From: Myxococcales bacterium
GTDB lineage: Bacteria > Myxococcota_A > UBA9042
NCBI GenBank assembly: GCA_009692425.1
Contig: SHZF01000031.1
Coordinates: 1 to 49,701, forward strand
Direction of reading: 5' to 3'
DNA: 49,701 nucleotides
The notes under the pieces are model-generated. The model ran no database searches. It saw only the letters and a list, made by a program, of their open reading frames with translations, and had not been told where the DNA came from. A program made the translations under genes and the position numbers. Shown in pieces: positions 25,037 to 34,732 of this stretch (positions within the stretch are counted from its first letter, which is position 1; each line of letters opens with the position of its first letter).

Positions 25037-28000
25037 CTACGGGTGTGACCAGCCGCCTGCCGCTTCTACGAAAAGGACCGTGTACAACTCGATGGCCATG
25101 TCGCGGCAGTTCGTGTAGCGCCCTTCGGGCTTCTTGGCCATCAGCTTCTCGATGATCGGAACGACGCCAGCAGGCAAGGCGGCGTTGAACTTGCGCGGGT
25201 CGGGCACGGGCTGCAGCGCCTGCGCCGCGAACAGGTTGTCGTCGGCAAAAGGCAGGAAGCCGGTCAGGGCGCGGAAAAGCAGCACTCCGAGCGCGTAGAT
25301 GTCGGCACGGTAGTCGGCCTTGGCGCCCATCAGTTGTTCGGGCGCCATATAGTGCGGCGTACCGATCAGCACGGACTGCTCGCCGAAGCCCTCGTCGGCC
25401 ACGCGCGCCAAGCCGAAGTCGAACAGCTTGACGGTGCCATCGACCGCGACCAGCACGTTGTCGGGCTTGACGTCGCGATGGAGGATGCCCTGGCCATGCG
25501 CGTTGTCGAGCGCGTCGCACAGTTGCGAGACCACGCTGAACAGGAACGACAGGTCGCGCATGCCGGCTTTTTGCGGCAGGTATGCGGTCAACGGCACCCC
25601 ATCGACGTATTCCATTGCATAATAGAGTACGCGCTCCGCCTCGCCGATGTCGTAGATGTGGACGATGTTCGGGTGGTTCAGGCTCGCGGCGAGTTTGACT
25701 TCACGCAGGAAGTACTTGCGCGCCATCTCCGTCGAGAGCTGCGTCGACGCCATGAATTTCAGCACGACGATGCGGTCGAGGTGGCGGTCGAGCGCGCGAA
25801 AGACGATGCCGTGACCGCCCTGGCCCAGGTGCTCCAGCCGGCCGTAGCGCTCGCGCAAGCTGGTAGGGACGCCGGCCGGCCAACTATCGCCGATGGGGCG
25901 ACTCGTGGCGTGCAGCAGCTTGCCCGCGGCCTGGTGTTGTTGCGCGAGCACGGCCACCGCCTGCTCCCGGGTATACGCATGCGTGGTCTCTTTGGCCGGC
26001 TGCGGCACCACCTCGACTGCAGACCCGACAAGGCCAAGCACCTGACTCTGGCGCGGGCCGGCATTCGGCGCAGGTTGGGGCGGACCGGCGCGGGATGGTG
26101 TGGCTGCGGGACCGACCCGGGCGACCGAAGCCTCGGGTGCCGGCGTGCCCCTGCGCGGGGCGGTGCCAGCGCTCCGGGCACGCACCAGCGCGCTCGGCGA
26201 GGCATCCTGCGGTCGGCCCGGCCTGGCGTGCTCGAATTCCGTCGGCGCCGGACTCGGTTGTGCCGGCACCGGCGCGGACGCAGGCAGGGCGTGGTCAGGC
26301 AACGGAGCCCGGGCGGCCGCCGGAGCCACCCGGGCGGAAGCCAACCGCCGGACGATCGATGCGGCGATGCGGGGTGGGGCTGGGGCGGGCACGGGCTCTG
26401 CACGGGTGCCGGCGGAGGTGCCGGCGGAGGTTCCCGCAGTAGTTCCCGCGGAGGTTCCCGCAGTAGTTCCCGCGGAGGTTCCCGCAGTGGTTCCCGCAGT
26501 GGTTCCCGCGGAGGTTCCCGCAGTGGTTCCCGCAGTGGTTCCCGCAGTGGTTCCCGCAGTGGTTCCCGCAGTGGTTCCCGCAGTGGTTCCCGCAGTGGTT
26601 CCCCTGGTGTAGGCGCGCGTCGACTGGACGGCGTCGCGCGGGAGACCTGGGGTCGCAGCCTGCGCCGGCGGCGCGATCGGAGTGGCCCCGGGGCGAACGA
26701 CGGGTTGACTCTGCCGCGCCGCCGACCCCGCCAGCGTCACGGTCGAGTGGTGCCGTTCGGGCGCTGGAAACCGGTCGGACCCGTGCACGATGCGGCGCAG
26801 CGCTCCCCCGGCTTCTGACAATCGGGCGGCTTCGGACACCCTCACGATCCCCGACGCGGGGTGACGCGCGGCCACCGCCACCGGCGCGGCAACCAGGGAC
26901 GGAGCTTCATGTGTCGCCGGATGTGCGCGTGCGGCCTGGACGCGCTTGGCAGACGGCCACTCGTTCGTCGATCGCAGCGGTGCGGCGTCGCGCATGGCGG
27001 CGGGAACGGGATCCAGCGAAAGGTCCATGCTGGCGCCGGTGCCGGGGTCGAACGTGCCGCTGACCGCGGTGTCCGACCGGGAGCCGAATCCCTCGCTCGG
27101 CGGGCGAGTCGGGGCGCTACCGAGCAGCGTCTTGAGGTCGGCGCTGGGCTGCAAATCTCCGTCAGGCAAGTCGAATTCTGAACTTATGCACGCGTCGGGT
27201 GCTGGCGCCGACGCAGTGGCCATGTCGGCCGGCGCCGCATGTGCCTGTGCCGCGAAGACCCGGGCGGGCGGTCGCACCGCTTCGACGTGCTCCGCGAGTG
27301 CGGCAGCCGGGCGGTCATCGGCCGGCGCGGCAAACACGCGCGCGACGGGCGCGGCACTCCCCGCTGCCGGGTTGCGAGTCTGGGCGAGAGTCGCGGCGGG
27401 GCCGTAGGCGCGGGCATTGGTGGGCTGCCCCGCAACATCCAGCGCCCCGTGCGACGCCTCCTCGACCCGGGCATTTGCATCCGGGTCGCTGGCAGGTGTC
27501 TCCTGCAGCGTGTTGGCGAACTCGGAACTCGCCCCGCCGACGTCGATCGGCAGTTCCTGGCGCACGGGCGGCGGCTCGACCCCAGTAAATCCATATGGAT
27601 CCGCGACATGCACGGGAGCGGGCGGCCCGTCGACGAACGGAATCTGCACGTCGGGCGACGCTGCCCCCCCAACCAGGTCCATGGCATTCAGCCCGGGGCC
27701 CGCCGTGGGCGACGCTGCACCGAGGATTGGGCGCGCACCGGCGGGTCCCATCCCGTCCAGCGCCGCTGCCGGGGCCTGCACAGGGGTGCCAACGCGCGTT
27801 GCCGTGGGCGCCAATTCGGGCACGTGGGCCGCGGCGATCGCCTCCACGCCACCGGCCAACCAGCGTTCGACGTTGAATTCGACGGCGCCGTACGATTCGG
27901 GCACGAGCGTGTCCGCTTCGGCCAGGTGGAACACCTCGCGCAGCAGGCGACGCAGCGGAACCGCCCCGGCCTCGCAGCGCACGTGGTGCAGCAGCACGGC

Positions 28001-28282
28001 AAAGCCAGGCTGGTACAGGCCCCCACGCGGCTCGGAGCGCACGACTGCGCCGCGCAGCGACACCATCGGCCCGTCGTGCCCCTGTGGCTGCACCTGTACG
28101 TCGATGTGGGCACCGAGCTGCAGTTCCGTGCGACAGGCAAAGAACGCGCCCATCGGGCTCAAATTGGTGCACACCACTTCGAAACGCGACGAATTCGCGC
28201 TTGCGGTCGCCATCAACAGCACAGGGTGGCGAAAATATTTGCGGCGATCTTGGAACATCGTCCTCGTACCCGTTCCCGCCAT
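25037..28282 (-). CDS. PilZ-domain/Ser-Thr protein kinase fusion
   Basis: The protein has 1081 residues from ATG 28282; a second in-frame ATG (28258, MFQDRRKYFRHP) is as likely since neither has a good ribosome site. Residues about 9-120 form a PilZ domain with RRKYFRHP and NLSPMGAFF, the RxxxR and (D/N)xSxxG c-di-GMP motifs. About 680 residues of Ala/Pro/Thr-rich linker follow, including 17 Gly-Thr-(Thr/Ser)-Ala units. The kinase domain (about 805-1065) has LGQGGHGIVF, catalytic Lys in VVLKFM, HRDVKPDNVL, DFGLA and APEQ, so it should be active. No transmembrane helix is seen, so it is probably cytosolic. The layout suggests kinase activity set by c-di-GMP. It diverges from holB. Confidence 0.85.
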   Translation of the reverse strand: MAGTGTRTMFQDRRKYFRHPVLLMATASANSSRFEVVCTNLSPMGAFFACRTELQLGAHIDVQVQPQGHDGPMVSLRGAVVRSEPRGGLYQPGFAVLLHHVRCEAGAVPLRRLLREVFHLAEADTLVPESYGAVEFNVERWLAGGVEAIAAAHVPELAPTATRVGTPVQAPAAALDGMGPAGARPILGAASPTAGPGLNAMDLVGGAASPDVQIPFVDGPPAPVHVADPYGFTGVEPPPVRQELPIDVGGASSEFANTLQETPASDPDANARVEEASHGALDVAGQPTNARAYGPAATLAQTRNPAAGSAAPVARVFAAPADDRPAAALAEHVEAVRPPARVFAAQAHAAPADMATASAPAPDACISSEFDLPDGDLQPSADLKTLLGSAPTRPPSEGFGSRSDTAVSGTFDPGTGASMDLSLDPVPAAMRDAAPLRSTNEWPSAKRVQAARAHPATHEAPSLVAAPVAVAARHPASGIVRVSEAARLSEAGGALRRIVHGSDRFPAPERHHSTVTLAGSAARQSQPVVRPGATPIAPPAQAATPGLPRDAVQSTRAYTRGTTAGTTAGTTAGTTAGTTAGTTAGTTAGTSAGTTAGTTAGTSAGTTAGTSAGTTAGTSAGTSAGTRAEPVPAPAPPRIAASIVRRLASARVAPAAARAPLPDHALPASAPVPAQPSPAPTEFEHARPGRPQDASPSALVRARSAGTAPRRGTPAPEASVARVGPAATPSRAGPPQPAPNAGPRQSQVLGLVGSAVEVVPQPAKETTHAYTREQAVAVLAQQHQAAGKLLHATSRPIGDSWPAGVPTSLRERYGRLEHLGQGGHGIVFRALDRHLDRIVVLKFMASTQLSTEMARKYFLREVKLAASLNHPNIVHIYDIGEAERVLYYAMEYVDGVPLTAYLPQKAGMRDLSFLFSVVSQLCDALDNAHGQGILHRDVKPDNVLVAVDGTVKLFDFGLARVADEGFGEQSVLIGTPHYMAPEQLMGAKADYRADIYALGVLLFRALTGFLPFADDNLFAAQALQPVPDPRKFNAALPAGVVPIIEKLMAKKPEGRYTNCRDMAIELYTVLFVEAAGGWSHP
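26399..26602. repeat. 12-bp tandem repeat, 17 units
   Basis: Head-to-tail units close to gttcccgcagtg, 17 in all, with variants gtagttcccgcg and gaggtt-type in mixed order. On the minus strand they encode Gly-Thr-Thr-Ala, Gly-Thr-Ser-Ala or, once, Gly-Thr-Arg-Ala in the linker of the PilZ-kinase. The seven units at the high-coordinate end all encode the same Gly-Thr-Thr-Ala tetrapeptide, which points to recent expansion there. The frame is kept whatever the copy number. Confidence 0.9.
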
Positions 28283-29439: not shown

Positions 29440-29570
29440 CATTCGCGACCATTTGGCGCAGACAGGGGCGAGTGCGATCCGCTATCCTGACGGGCGTGCT
29501 GCGTCCGATCGCCCTGCCGTGCGGCGGTGCGCGCGGTGCATGGCCTGCTAGTTGCACAACCGGAGACGCC

Positions 29571-32500
29571 ATGTCGCTTCCAACCTCCCGTTTGTACTTG
29601 GCAGTGCGCCGCCCCGGGGCGGCCGTGTTGGTGGCGGCCGTGTTGGTGGCGGCCGCGGCATGCTCGGGCGACGACGTTGCGGTCCAAGGCGGCCCCAGCG
29701 ACGCGCTGGGGGCCGGCGGCACCGTGGGACTGGACGGCGGATTGGCGGACGCGGCGGGCGCAACTGTGCCTGGCAAGGACGCTGTGGGCGCGGATGCTTC
29801 GGCCGCCGACGCGAGTGCGCCGCGAGCCGACGGCGGCGGCGCCCCGGGTGGTTGCCGCCCCGACGAATGCGCGATCGGCGATGCCTGTGTGGCAAACCAG
29901 ACGGTCAACCCAGCCAATCCCTGCCAACGCTGCCTCGTGCTCGCGGGCGCCAGCAACTGGACGGCGGCCAACGAGGCGCAGCCCTGCGACGATGGCAACG
30001 CTTGCACCCAAAGCGACGCCTGCGCGGCCGGGACTTGCGCAGGTCTGGGCCTGCCGTGCGCAGACGCCTCGCCTTGCACTGCCGACTCGTGCGACGCCAC
30101 CTCTGGCAGTTGCGTGCACCTGCCCAGCGCAGCGACGTGCGACGACGCGAGCGCCTGCACCGTCGGCGATGCGTGTGCGGACGGCAAGTGCGCAGCCGGC
30201 AAGGCACTCGCGTGCGACGACGGCAACCCTTGCACGCTCGACACGTGCGGCCCGGTCGTGGGCTGCGAGGCTGCCGCTCACGATGCAGCCTGCGACGACG
30301 GGAACGCGTGCACGAAGGCCGACGCCTGCAAGGCGGGCACGTGCGGCGCGGGCACGCCGCTGGACTGCGACGACGCCGACGTGTGCACGGTCGATTCGTG
30401 CAACGCCAAGGTCGGCTGCCAACACAAGTCAGTCGCCCCGAAGTGTCTCGACAACAACCCATGCACCGACGAGGGCTGCGACAAGAAGCTCGGCTGCGTC
30501 TACCCGGCGAACGCGAAGCCGTGCGACGACGGCTCGCTTTGTACGGCAGCCGATGCGTGCAAGGACACGGTGTGCCTTGGCGCCGTGCTGCCCATCGACG
30601 ACGCCAACCCGTGCACCTACGACACTTGCGACCCCAAGGTCGGGGTGAGCCATGGCGCGAACGCGGCACCGTGCGACGACGGCAACGCGTGCACCGTCGG
30701 CGACACCTGCGCTGCGGCGACGTGCGTCAAGGGCGCCAACGCGCTGCCCTGCGACGATCAGAATCCGTGCACGGACGACGCCTGCGACCCGGTCAAGGCG
30801 TGCGTGTCGGTGCCCAACGCGTCCACCTGCACCGACGGCAACGTGTGCACGGTCGGCGACGTGTGCAGCGCGGCGACGTGCGCGGGCAAGAAGCTCGACT
30901 GCGACGACGGCAACAAGTGCACCGACGATTCGTGTGACGCAAAGGCCGGCTGCAAGCACGCGGTCATCGTGTCGAACGCGTGCCGGCCGCAGATCATCGT
31001 GGACTACCCGCCGCGCGCGGCGACGCTGACCGAAGTGGCCGGCAAGGTCACGGTCAAGGGCAAGGTCGCCTCGGGCGCGGGGCCGATCGTGACGTTCCAG
31101 TTGAACGGCAAGGACGTCGCCGTCGGCGCCGGCGGAGTGTTCTCGACGACGCTGCAGGCCAAGCCGGGCGGCAACACCCTCGTGTTCGTGGCGAAGGACG
31201 ATCACCAGGGCGAAAAGAAGCGCGTGCAGTCCTTCCTGTGGTCGACGACGTACTTCAAGCCAGTGCTCGAAGTGGCGAAATCGGGCATGGTCGACGTGGG
31301 CTTGGGCTTCTGGCTCAGCCAGGCCGTGATCGACGACGGTGATCACAGCTTGCCGGCGAACGATCTCGCTACGATCTTCGAACTCTACCTGAAGACGATC
31401 GATCTCAACAAGCTGATCGGCGGCACGGCTTTCGAGTTCAACGCGCTGGGCAAGTGGAAGCTCACGCTCTCGAACCTGAAGAACGCCCCGCCGACCGTGA
31501 CCCTCAAGTCGCAGCCCGGCGGCATGCACATGGTGGCGACCTTCTCCAATGTGACGGCCGACATCTTGCTGGACCCGCCGACCGGCCAAAACCTCAAGGG
31601 AACGATGACGTTGTCGAGCATCGCGATCACGACAGACGTCGTTTCGAGTGTGACCCCCGACCACAAGATCGCGGTCGCCATGACCAATACCGACGTCAAG
31701 CTGAACGGCCTCAACGTGAAATTCACCGGGCTGGCCGGAGCGCTCGTCGGGACCATCATCAACCTGCTGCAAGGTGTCATCAAGCCGTCGATCGAGAAGG
31801 CGTTCGAGGATCAGGTCGTCAAGGCGCTGGCACCCGCGCTGGGGTCGGCGCTCAATGCGCTGCTGCTGGATACCTCGTTCGAGGTCACGAAACTCGATGG
31901 GTCCGGCGCCAAGATCAAGGTGTTCCTGCAGACGGACGCGTCGAAGGTCGTGTTCGAGGCGGCGGGCGGTGCATTTCTCGAGCGCGCACGGGCGGCGGCG
32001 AAAAAGGCGATCGCGTACGACAACCTCGGCGTGCCGGGCCGCATCGGGTGCGGCAACGGCGTGCAGGCGCTCGCGATGCTCAAGACCTCGCCGCTCGAGA
32101 TCGGCATCGCAGACGACACGTTCAACGAACTGCTGTTTGCGACGTGGACGGGGGGGCTCTACGAGTTCCCGGTGCCGGCGTCGATGCTCGGCAACGTGGA
32201 CCTCCAGCAATACGGTGTGTCGGACTTGACGATGAAGGTGAGCGCAATGTTGGCTCCCACGCTCGACGACTGCAACACTAAGGCGGAGTTGGACGCGCAC
32301 ATCGGCGACTTTCGCGTCGATGCCAAGCTCAAGCTGCTCGGGGCCCCGATGGACGTGATCATCTACGTGACGTTCAAGGCCGGCGTCGAGATCAAGGTCG
32401 CGGCCGGCGCGGTCGGCATCGCGCTCACGAAGGTGAAGGCGTCGGACCTCGAGGTCAACGTGGCGCAGGACAACCTCGTGGCGTCCGAAAAAGTGCTTGA

Positions 32501-32696
32501 GAAGTTGGTGGCGGAGAACCTGCTGACTGGGCTGGTTGCGCAACTCGGCGGCTCGGCGCTCGGCTCGTTCCCGCTGCCGGCAATCGACCTGTCTGCGGCA
32601 CTGCCGAGCTTGCCGAAGGGTACGGCGATTGCGATCGCGCCCAAGCAGGTGACGCGCAAGGACGGCAACTCGATCGTCGGGGGGACGCTGAAATGA
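29571..32696 (+). CDS. Cys-repeat lipoprotein with TULIP/BPI-like C-terminal half
   Basis: From ATG 29571 (GGAG six bases upstream) the protein has 1041 residues. Lipobox AAAC (Cys about 27), then an Ala/Gly/Asp-rich stalk, then about 13 CDDGNxCT-type Cys repeats (residues about 110-470). Residues about 475-560 look like an Ig-like domain (TEVAGKVTVKGKVASG, GGNTLVFVAKDD). The last 475 residues resemble a TULIP (BPI/LBP-like) lipid-binding fold. They are long amphipathic beta-strands, a first half ending in a helix (TIINLLQGVIKPSIEKAFED), a Pro-rich crossover (YEFPVPASML) and a second half ending in a helix, FPLPAIDLS and a final strand (TAIAIAPKQVTRKDG). The fold call is from pattern, not a search. 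The stop overlaps the next gene by four bases (ATGA), so the two proteins are probably made together. Confidence 0.75.
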   Translation: MSLPTSRLYLAVRRPGAAVLVAAVLVAAAACSGDDVAVQGGPSDALGAGGTVGLDGGLADAAGATVPGKDAVGADASAADASAPRADGGGAPGGCRPDECAIGDACVANQTVNPANPCQRCLVLAGASNWTAANEAQPCDDGNACTQSDACAAGTCAGLGLPCADASPCTADSCDATSGSCVHLPSAATCDDASACTVGDACADGKCAAGKALACDDGNPCTLDTCGPVVGCEAAAHDAACDDGNACTKADACKAGTCGAGTPLDCDDADVCTVDSCNAKVGCQHKSVAPKCLDNNPCTDEGCDKKLGCVYPANAKPCDDGSLCTAADACKDTVCLGAVLPIDDANPCTYDTCDPKVGVSHGANAAPCDDGNACTVGDTCAAATCVKGANALPCDDQNPCTDDACDPVKACVSVPNASTCTDGNVCTVGDVCSAATCAGKKLDCDDGNKCTDDSCDAKAGCKHAVIVSNACRPQIIVDYPPRAATLTEVAGKVTVKGKVASGAGPIVTFQLNGKDVAVGAGGVFSTTLQAKPGGNTLVFVAKDDHQGEKKRVQSFLWSTTYFKPVLEVAKSGMVDVGLGFWLSQAVIDDGDHSLPANDLATIFELYLKTIDLNKLIGGTAFEFNALGKWKLTLSNLKNAPPTVTLKSQPGGMHMVATFSNVTADILLDPPTGQNLKGTMTLSSIAITTDVVSSVTPDHKIAVAMTNTDVKLNGLNVKFTGLAGALVGTIINLLQGVIKPSIEKAFEDQVVKALAPALGSALNALLLDTSFEVTKLDGSGAKIKVFLQTDASKVVFEAAGGAFLERARAAAKKAIAYDNLGVPGRIGCGNGVQALAMLKTSPLEIGIADDTFNELLFATWTGGLYEFPVPASMLGNVDLQQYGVSDLTMKVSAMLAPTLDDCNTKAELDAHIGDFRVDAKLKLLGAPMDVIIYVTFKAGVEIKVAAGAVGIALTKVKASDLEVNVAQDNLVASEKVLEKLVAENLLTGLVAQLGGSALGSFPLPAIDLSAALPSLPKGTAIAIAPKQVTRKDGNSIVGGTLK

Positions 32697-34732
32697 CGCG
32701 ACCGGGACAGGCATGGGCGGCGGCGTGGGCGGTGGGTGCGCTGAGTTGGGCGTGCACCGGCGTCGATCCGGCGGCGGGTCCCGGGCTCGGGTCGGCAGCT
32801 TCAGACGGCGGGGTGATCGGCAGCGACGGCGCGGTGGGCGACACGGCTGGGGCCGCCGGCGCAACGGATGGCGCACCCCGCAGCGATGGGGGCGTAGGTC
32901 CAGACGCCACAGCGCGGGCCAGCGACGCGCTTGGTGCGGCCCAGGAGACCGCGGACGCACCCGGCTGTAGCGCCGAACAGGCCAAGAAGTGCGCCGATGG
33001 GCTGGCCTGCACGGCCGACGCTTGTGTGGCCGGTGTCTGCCAGTGGACCTTGGTCGCCGGCCACTGCTTCGTCGGCGGCACCTGCGCCGTTGCGGGCGCG
33101 GCAAACCCGGCCCAGGCCTGCCAGCGCTGCGACCCGGTTGCCAATGCCAAGGCGTGGTCGCTCGCCCCCGACGCCACCGCGTGCGACGACGGCACGGCGT
33201 GCTCGTTCGACGACGCCTGCAAGGGTGGCAAGTGCGGCGGGCAACCGGTCGTGTGCGGCGACGGCAATCCGTGTACGGCCGACACGTGCGACAAGACGAA
33301 GGGCTGCCTGTATCCGCCGACGCTCGGTTCGACGGCGTGCGACGATGGCAGCGCGTGCTCGGTGGCCGACCACTGCAGCGCGGGCCAGTGTGCCGGCAAG
33401 CTTACGGTGTGCGACGACAAGAATCCGTGTACCGACGACGCGTGTGATTCCAAGACCGGCTGCGGGGCCAAGCCGAACCTCGCGCCGTGCTCCGACGGCG
33501 ACGCCTGCAGTGCGGGCGATGCCTGCCAGGGCGGCACCTGTCAGGGCGGCCCGCTGCCCAACTGCGACGACGGCAACGTGTGCTCGCTCGACTCCTGCGA
33601 GGTTGGGGTGGGCTGCTACCACCTGCCGGTGCAGAGTCCATGCTGCGTCGGCCAGACGTCGAAATGTGACGACGGCAAGCCGTGCACGAACGACTTGTGC
33701 GACGGCAGCGGCTGCAAGCACGAGCCCAACACGGCCCCCTGCGACGATGGCAACGCGTGTACGGGCGGCGACGCGTGCCAGGGCGGCGCGTGCACTGGCA
33801 CGAAGGCGGCCGTGTGCGACGACAAGAACCCATGCACTGCAGACACGTGCACGGCCAAGACCGGCTGCCAGCACCAGGCGACGGGCAACGGCACGGCGTG
33901 CGACGACGGCAGCGCTTGTACAAAGGACGACAAGTGCACGGGCGGCACCTGCGCGGGCAGTGGGTCGTGCGCGTGTACGCCGGTGTTCAGCACCGCGGCA
34001 GCCAAGCTGAACACGGTCCTCATCGGCTCCGGCGGCAAGCCGGGCGAGGGCCTGGACGTCGACGAGAACCCGGCCACGTGCGCGCCCGGCGATTGCTCTG
34101 CGGGCATCGACAACGCACTGTCGGCGCTCGGCTCGTTCGCCAACCCGCAACTCGACAAGGCGGTGCAGTCCGGGTCGCTGGCGCTCGTGCTGGAACTGAA
34201 GGAGTTCAAGCAGGGCCCCATCAACCTCGCGCTCTACTCTGCCAAGCTCGACCCGAAAAACGCCACGTGCAAGTTCATGACCGAGTCGTGTGCGTGGCGC
34301 GTGGACCCGAAGATGCTCGACCCGGTCTCGTGCAAGGCTCTCGTCGGACTGCCCGGCACGCTGGTGGGCACCCAGTTGAAGGCGGGCGGCAAGAGCACGA
34401 GCTTTCCGTTCTCGATTCCGCTCCAAGGGGGCGCCGCGCTGAAGGTGACGATCTACGCGGCCCGCGTGCACGCCACGGTGACGCTGGCAGACGGCAAGAT
34501 GACAGCACTGGACGGCGTACTGGCGGGTGCGGTGCCGAAGACCGAACTCGTCGCCGCGCTCGACGCCCTGCCCGACGACGGCAGCCTGCCGATCTCGAAA
34601 GACGACTTGAAAGGCCTGCTCAACGCGCTCGTTCAAAACGACATCGACCTCGACGGCGACGGCAAGAAGGATGCGGCGTCAATCGGCCTCAAGCTCAAGG
34701 GGATTGCCGGGACGCTGGCGGGCACCTACTGA
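32693..34732 (+). CDS. Cys-repeat lipoprotein, partner of TULIP-like protein
   Basis: ATG 32693 overlaps the upstream stop by four bases, a sign of translational coupling. The 679 residues begin with a signal peptide ending in SWAC (Cys about 21) and a Gly/Ala/Asp-rich stalk. About 11 CDDGxxCT-type repeats (residues about 100-430) follow, with one CQRC motif shared with the upstream protein. The last 250 residues are a beta-rich domain of unknown type: LNTVLIGSGGKPGEGLD, a LALVLELKEF strand, two Cys (CKFMTESC), FPFSIPLQGGAALKVTIYAARVHATV and a Ca-like loop DIDLDGDGKKD before the terminal AGTLAGTY. Both genes share stalk and repeat style and likely act together at the surface. Specific function unknown. 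Confidence 0.75.
   Translation: MTRPGQAWAAAWAVGALSWACTGVDPAAGPGLGSAASDGGVIGSDGAVGDTAGAAGATDGAPRSDGGVGPDATARASDALGAAQETADAPGCSAEQAKKCADGLACTADACVAGVCQWTLVAGHCFVGGTCAVAGAANPAQACQRCDPVANAKAWSLAPDATACDDGTACSFDDACKGGKCGGQPVVCGDGNPCTADTCDKTKGCLYPPTLGSTACDDGSACSVADHCSAGQCAGKLTVCDDKNPCTDDACDSKTGCGAKPNLAPCSDGDACSAGDACQGGTCQGGPLPNCDDGNVCSLDSCEVGVGCYHLPVQSPCCVGQTSKCDDGKPCTNDLCDGSGCKHEPNTAPCDDGNACTGGDACQGGACTGTKAAVCDDKNPCTADTCTAKTGCQHQATGNGTACDDGSACTKDDKCTGGTCAGSGSCACTPVFSTAAAKLNTVLIGSGGKPGEGLDVDENPATCAPGDCSAGIDNALSALGSFANPQLDKAVQSGSLALVLELKEFKQGPINLALYSAKLDPKNATCKFMTESCAWRVDPKMLDPVSCKALVGLPGTLVGTQLKAGGKSTSFPFSIPLQGGAALKVTIYAARVHATVTLADGKMTALDGVLAGAVPKTELVAALDALPDDGSLPISKDDLKGLLNALVQNDIDLDGDGKKDAASIGLKLKGIAGTLAGTY

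Follow-up and report, generated by a model that had tools for sequence, protein, structure and literature searches.

A predicted BPI/LBP-type TULIP lipoprotein family of Myxococcota is encoded with a partner lipoprotein whose stalk co-varies with it in length

The window, the whole stretch of 49,701 nucleotides that was analysed, belongs to a Myxococcales genome of 4.9 Mb in 137 contigs, whose relatives are uncultured Myxococcales, many of them from lakes. Its forward strand carries two overlapping genes. The first (29571..32696, +) is an intact open reading frame of 1041 amino acids (P0001) with homologues in related genomes, and a Shine-Dalgarno-like GGAG (29562..29565, +) lies 5 nt 5' of its ATG at 29571. 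The protein begins with a signal sequence and a candidate lipidated Cys31 (AAAAC, then SGDD; 29571..29663, +). It continues with a stalk of 12 Dicty_CTDC-type cysteine repeats of the pattern CxD(x)3C[ST] (residues 139-463; 29985..30959, +; Pfam PF00526, E 2e-31) and an Ig-like domain of the Glucodextran_B/Big_7 type assigned by Pfam (residues 473-551; 30987..31223, +). It ends in a predicted double TULIP of the BPI/LBP type (approximately residues 562-1041; 31254..32693, +), the N-terminal half of which contains a match to Pfam LBP_BPI_CETP (PF01273; 31491..31829, +). The second open reading frame, hereafter the partner gene (32693..34732, +), encodes 679 amino acids (P0002) and is adjacent to the TULIP gene in related genomes as well. 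Its product carries a stalk of 11 cysteine repeats (32990..33964, +; PF00526, E 2.6e-18) and a beta-rich C-terminal domain delimited by alignment, AlphaFold2 model and cysteine count (approximately residues 426-679; 33968..34729, +).

Identity among orthologues reaches 60% in the TULIP domain and 62% in the partner domain, which indicates that both genes are real coding sequence. The original prediction had placed about 13 CDDGNxCT repeats and a lipobox ahead of the TULIP domain. The repeats are indeed present, but they number 12. The lipobox is supported by the hydrophobic N-terminal signal and by good lipoboxes in most orthologues (for example ALAGC or LLTGC, the residue after the cysteine being mostly G or S), whereas those of the window copies are poor (AAAAC in the TULIP protein and LSWAC in the partner). 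The Ig-like domain, absent from that earlier account, was found in 26 of 28 TULIP family members with a best E of 3e-9, and the Pro-rich crossover said to join the two TULIP halves is not evident. Tandem PF00526 repeats, the hallmark of Dicty_CTDC proteins, are confined to the stalks, and a sequence search with the stalk against solved structures found no relative.

The start codon of the partner gene lies inside the stop codon of the TULIP gene, as had been read from the sequence, in an ATGA overlap (32693..32696, +); an overlap of exactly 4 bases recurs in 11 of the 19 orthologous loci whose junction is readable. The expected co-occurrence of the two genes was also borne out: 59 partner-domain matches, chosen mostly for their strength, were examined for pairing, and 46 of them stand directly 3' of a same-strand TULIP gene; these cover 40 genomes and approximately 12 families. 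The genomes compared are mostly fragmented assemblies, and these tallies depend on the thresholds used; for two of the unpaired matches (G002 and G004), the TULIP gene of the genome is at or near a contig end. In one family, seven loci (L118, L121, L124, L130, L132, L135 and L136) carry a pair of different TULIP genes ahead of a single partner gene. Directly upstream of the TULIP gene is a gene that appears to encode DNA polymerase III delta' (holB), an arrangement conserved in 13 of the loci, and in the window a serine/threonine kinase gene is present on each side; these genes were named from their sequences. One of the kinases (25037-28282, -) has a long low-complexity linker of AGTT repeats, in amino-acid letters, and what looks on inspection like a PilZ-type segment at its N terminus, and its gene precedes holB here and in related genomes.

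To place the TULIP head we compared it with known proteins by sequence and by predicted shape. A profile built from 30 homologues and searched with HMMER against all PDB sequences matched LBP (E 8e-10) and BPI (two entries, 9e-8 and 1e-7), with no further hit up to E 10; an overlapping profile of 28 rows returned the same three entries. Of 52 genomes of the class, 45 gave a match to PF01273, which in 17 of these exceeded the curated cut-off; the 14 control genomes gave no match. The best match in the family has an E of 9e-11, and the window copy scores 16.7 bits, under the 28.8-bit cut-off (E 0.006-0.026). The AlphaFold2 model of the TULIP domain, computed from an alignment of the window and locus sequences, is confident (mean pLDDT 86.9, pTM 0.83), and Foldseek against the PDB ranked human BPI at the top (E 2e-19, TM-score 0.61 on BPI's length, alignment of 507 columns), then LBP and CETP, then OrfX3 and P47. 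Structure prediction and fold search had been set beforehand as the test of the original fold call; they returned the double TULIP shape with BPI as the best PDB match. The approximately 480 residues at the C-terminal end of the protein thus form a pseudo-symmetric domain in the model, with two TULIP domains in one chain, as indicated by AlphaFold2, Foldseek and a weak profile resemblance between the halves (hhalign probability 70%). This resemblance centres on the long helix and the stretch after it, which reads FEVTKLDGS in the N-terminal half and FPLPAIDLS in the C-terminal half. The profile E-values, the empty control genomes and the confident model rule out chance composition as the cause of the BPI match, and on profile and model evidence the TULIP head belongs with BPI/LBP/CETP in both sequence and shape.

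The bacterial family shares with BPI, LBP and CETP the double TULIP in one chain with its elements in the same order. Those proteins are usually secreted free, whereas the present family is a predicted lipoprotein on a Cys-repeat stalk; it differs as well in its Ig-like domain, its acidity, an invariant cysteine pair in the C-terminal half of the TULIP domain and its conserved partner gene. The net charge of the TULIP domain is -6 in the window copy and -18 on average in the family, and the N-terminal half of the window domain, with 19 K/R against 21 D/E, has no cationic LPS-binding tip. Of the roles originally suggested, moving lipids or binding foreign membranes, a BPI-like binding of foreign LPS is therefore not backed by charge. 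As CETP is also without a cationic LPS-binding N-terminal tip, this feature bears on BPI-like function and not on family membership. Membrane anchoring occurs in some protist members of the BPI/LBP/CETP family too (PMC5507252).

Other bacterial TULIPs are more distant. DUF4403 (PF14356) is a bacterial pseudodimeric full-length TULIP, often a lipoprotein (PMC6791001). It is encoded by a separate gene in the window's genome (contig C44) and in genomes of the same family, its alignment with the present family has an hhalign probability of 3%, and the PF14356 profile found no PDB sequence up to E 10. These results exclude the present proteins from DUF4403, and the lack of alignment together with the empty PDB search places them nearer to the eukaryotic BPI group than DUF4403 is. 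Clostridial P47, OrfX2 and OrfX3 share the TULIP fold, and P47 and OrfX rank further down the Foldseek list (E 5e-6 to 2e-9), under BPI, LBP and CETP, and E. coli YceB (DUF1439) is not among the 50 Foldseek matches listed; the PDB entries of P47/OrfX and YceB are without a sequence match to our family profile. To our knowledge, no P47/OrfX or YceB member has such a Cys stalk and partner. Bacterial BPI-like folds were already known from a 2023 report, in which human BPI clusters with a bacterial predicted structure, A0A2D5ZNG0, at a TM-score of 0.81, and the figure legend names a Deltaproteobacteria bacterium among its organisms (Barrio-Hernandez et al. 2023, PMC10584675). The portion of that report available to us presents A0A2D5ZNG0 as a single structural example, with no family, stalk, partner or distribution given, and our literature search on Myxococcota BPI proteins found no account of the family, its architecture or the partner.

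Homologues of the TULIP domain were found in 52 of the 53 genomes chosen for the search as nearest relatives, most often with three to five copies each, in genomes of every examined family of the class, and in 165 of 284 Myxococcota genomes sampled. The window's genome has three TULIP paralogues without a Cys-repeat stalk and without such a partner alongside, which shows that the partner is not needed by every TULIP member. Paralogues carry Ig-like modules in place of the Cys stalk, and complete genomes of other families contain two adjacent TULIP genes without Cys repeats. Two paralogues in the window's genome have other neighbours. Directly 3' of one of them (L067:157-3327, contig C136) is a gene for a 705-residue protein-arginine deiminase (L067:3402-5519; PF03068, E 1.3e-69; middle domain PAD_M at E 3e-4, under its cut-off), another protein type best known from animals. 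At L069:3116-5293 (contig C132), a further TULIP paralogue is followed by a lipoprotein-like protein with 61 cysteines and Cu-binding_MopE motifs, which is not the usual partner.

The second protein had been described as a Cys-repeat lipoprotein with an unnamed beta-rich C-terminal domain, and this description holds: searches of the domain against NCBIfam, Pfam and PDB sequences found no relative. It contains a calcium-loop-like DxDxDGxxD motif, suggesting that the partner head is probably calcium-binding, and 7 cysteines in the window copy. The AlphaFold2 model of the head (pLDDT 85.6) gave no Foldseek match to PDB structures at 1e-3; the best one, TbpB (E 0.013, probability 0.95), falls short of that threshold and is not claimed as a relative. 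Elsewhere, a 4607-residue open frame (L071:2211-16034, genome G037, contig C12) has at least four tandem copies of the partner C-terminal domain alternating with Cys-repeat pairs, an arrangement that resembles a surface fibre.

The stalks of the two proteins vary together in length. Measured as the number of cysteines before the head domains, the lengths of TULIP protein and partner are correlated with a Pearson r of 0.95 over 40 pairs; these are related by descent, which bars use of the p-value, and one pair is counted twice under two locus identifiers. The TULIP/partner counts of the window are 61/55; one genus of the same family has 85-86/78-82, another clade 79-81/72-73 and a further lineage 90/82. 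Expressed as repeats, the window has 12/11 and one genus 19/17, and the stalks range from approximately 9 to 19 repeats across pairs. On the TULIP-domain tree long stalks arose at least twice, in separate joint lengthenings. The identity between TULIP and partner stalks is 47.5% within genomes and 46.2% between genomes; since the former is hardly above the latter, recent gene conversion or repeat exchange is ruled out as the main cause of the match. The co-varying stalks are, on sequence evidence, a new observation that suggests two separately encoded lipoproteins held at a set distance from the membrane, and because both change length together, the heads are probably kept at the same height. 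The match could also come from pairing between the stalks themselves, or both proteins may have to reach past the same surface layer, with heads that do not touch.

We consider it somewhat probable that the two proteins work as an outer-membrane lipoprotein pair, in which the stalks set the heads side by side and the partner assists the TULIP head in binding a hydrophobic molecule. The two lipoproteins would be translationally coupled and both anchored in the outer membrane. Each would consist of a lipid anchor and a C-terminal head joined by a stalk that is rich in disulfides and probably stiffened by calcium. The heads would most likely stand side by side at a fixed height, where the TULIP head, placed after the Ig-like domain, would take up the hydrophobic molecule and the partner head would dock it, receive it or gate it. 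TULIP domains are known to enclose lipid (PMC5507252). Our analysis shows the homology, the predicted fold, the gene pairing and the matched stalks, from which we infer that the proteins are lipidated, bind lipid, touch through their heads and are exposed at the cell surface; a surface location is slightly favoured over the periplasm by the twofold variation in stalk length and by the Ig-like modules that replace the stalk in paralogues.

It is possible, though doubtful, that the pair is instead anchored to the inner leaflet of the outer membrane, with a stalk that lets the TULIP head reach the inner membrane and move lipid between the two membranes, a role also proposed for DUF4403 and YceB. 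Such a periplasmic bridge would agree with the location supposed for other bacterial TULIPs (PMC6791001; PMC5507252), with an estimated stalk of approximately 20 nm, near the width of the periplasm, and with tandem TULIP pairs that could form a relay. However, stalks of 9 to 19 repeats would be odd in a gap of fixed width, Cys-rich and Asp-rich repeats with calcium-loop motifs suit the outside, and in paralogues the Cys stalk is swapped for Ig-like modules. A coat component seems improbable: here the TULIP fold would be kept without lipid carriage, and the pair would form part of a structural or adhesive surface scaffold. The fibre-like array of partner domains and Cys repeats agrees with it, as does the naming of Dicty_CTDC repeats for slime-mould extracellular-matrix proteins, but conservation across the family extends to the long strands and the C-terminal FPLPxIDLS region, which a pure spacer would not need. 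Very unlikely, in our judgement, is a weapon against prey or rivals, a surface mimic of BPI, binding LPS from other bacteria and contributing to damage of their outer membranes. The nearest solved relatives are BPI and LBP and many Myxococcota are predators, but BPI kills through its cationic N-terminal domain, and the acidic TULIP domain makes killing of that style unlikely. Moreover, presence in every examined family of the class and synteny behind holB resemble a housekeeping function more than an arms race.

TULIP proteins act as lipid carriers in the blood, at contacts between organelles and in innate immunity. Their origin has been disputed because bacterial relatives matched the eukaryotic ones too weakly (PMC6791001). 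This question becomes testable with a bacterial family that is spread through a phylum and matches BPI and LBP in a simple profile search, and the matched stalks offer an unusual and checkable sign of joint work by two separately encoded lipoproteins. We put forward tentatively, as a proposal that is unlikely to hold, that the eukaryotic BPI/LBP/CETP proteins have their bacterial sister or source in the Myxococcota family and that this family works in bacteria as a length-matched, two-lipoprotein device for lipid transfer at the surface. If this is true, the family would link eukaryotic and bacterial TULIPs, whose homology was previously judged too weak to settle.
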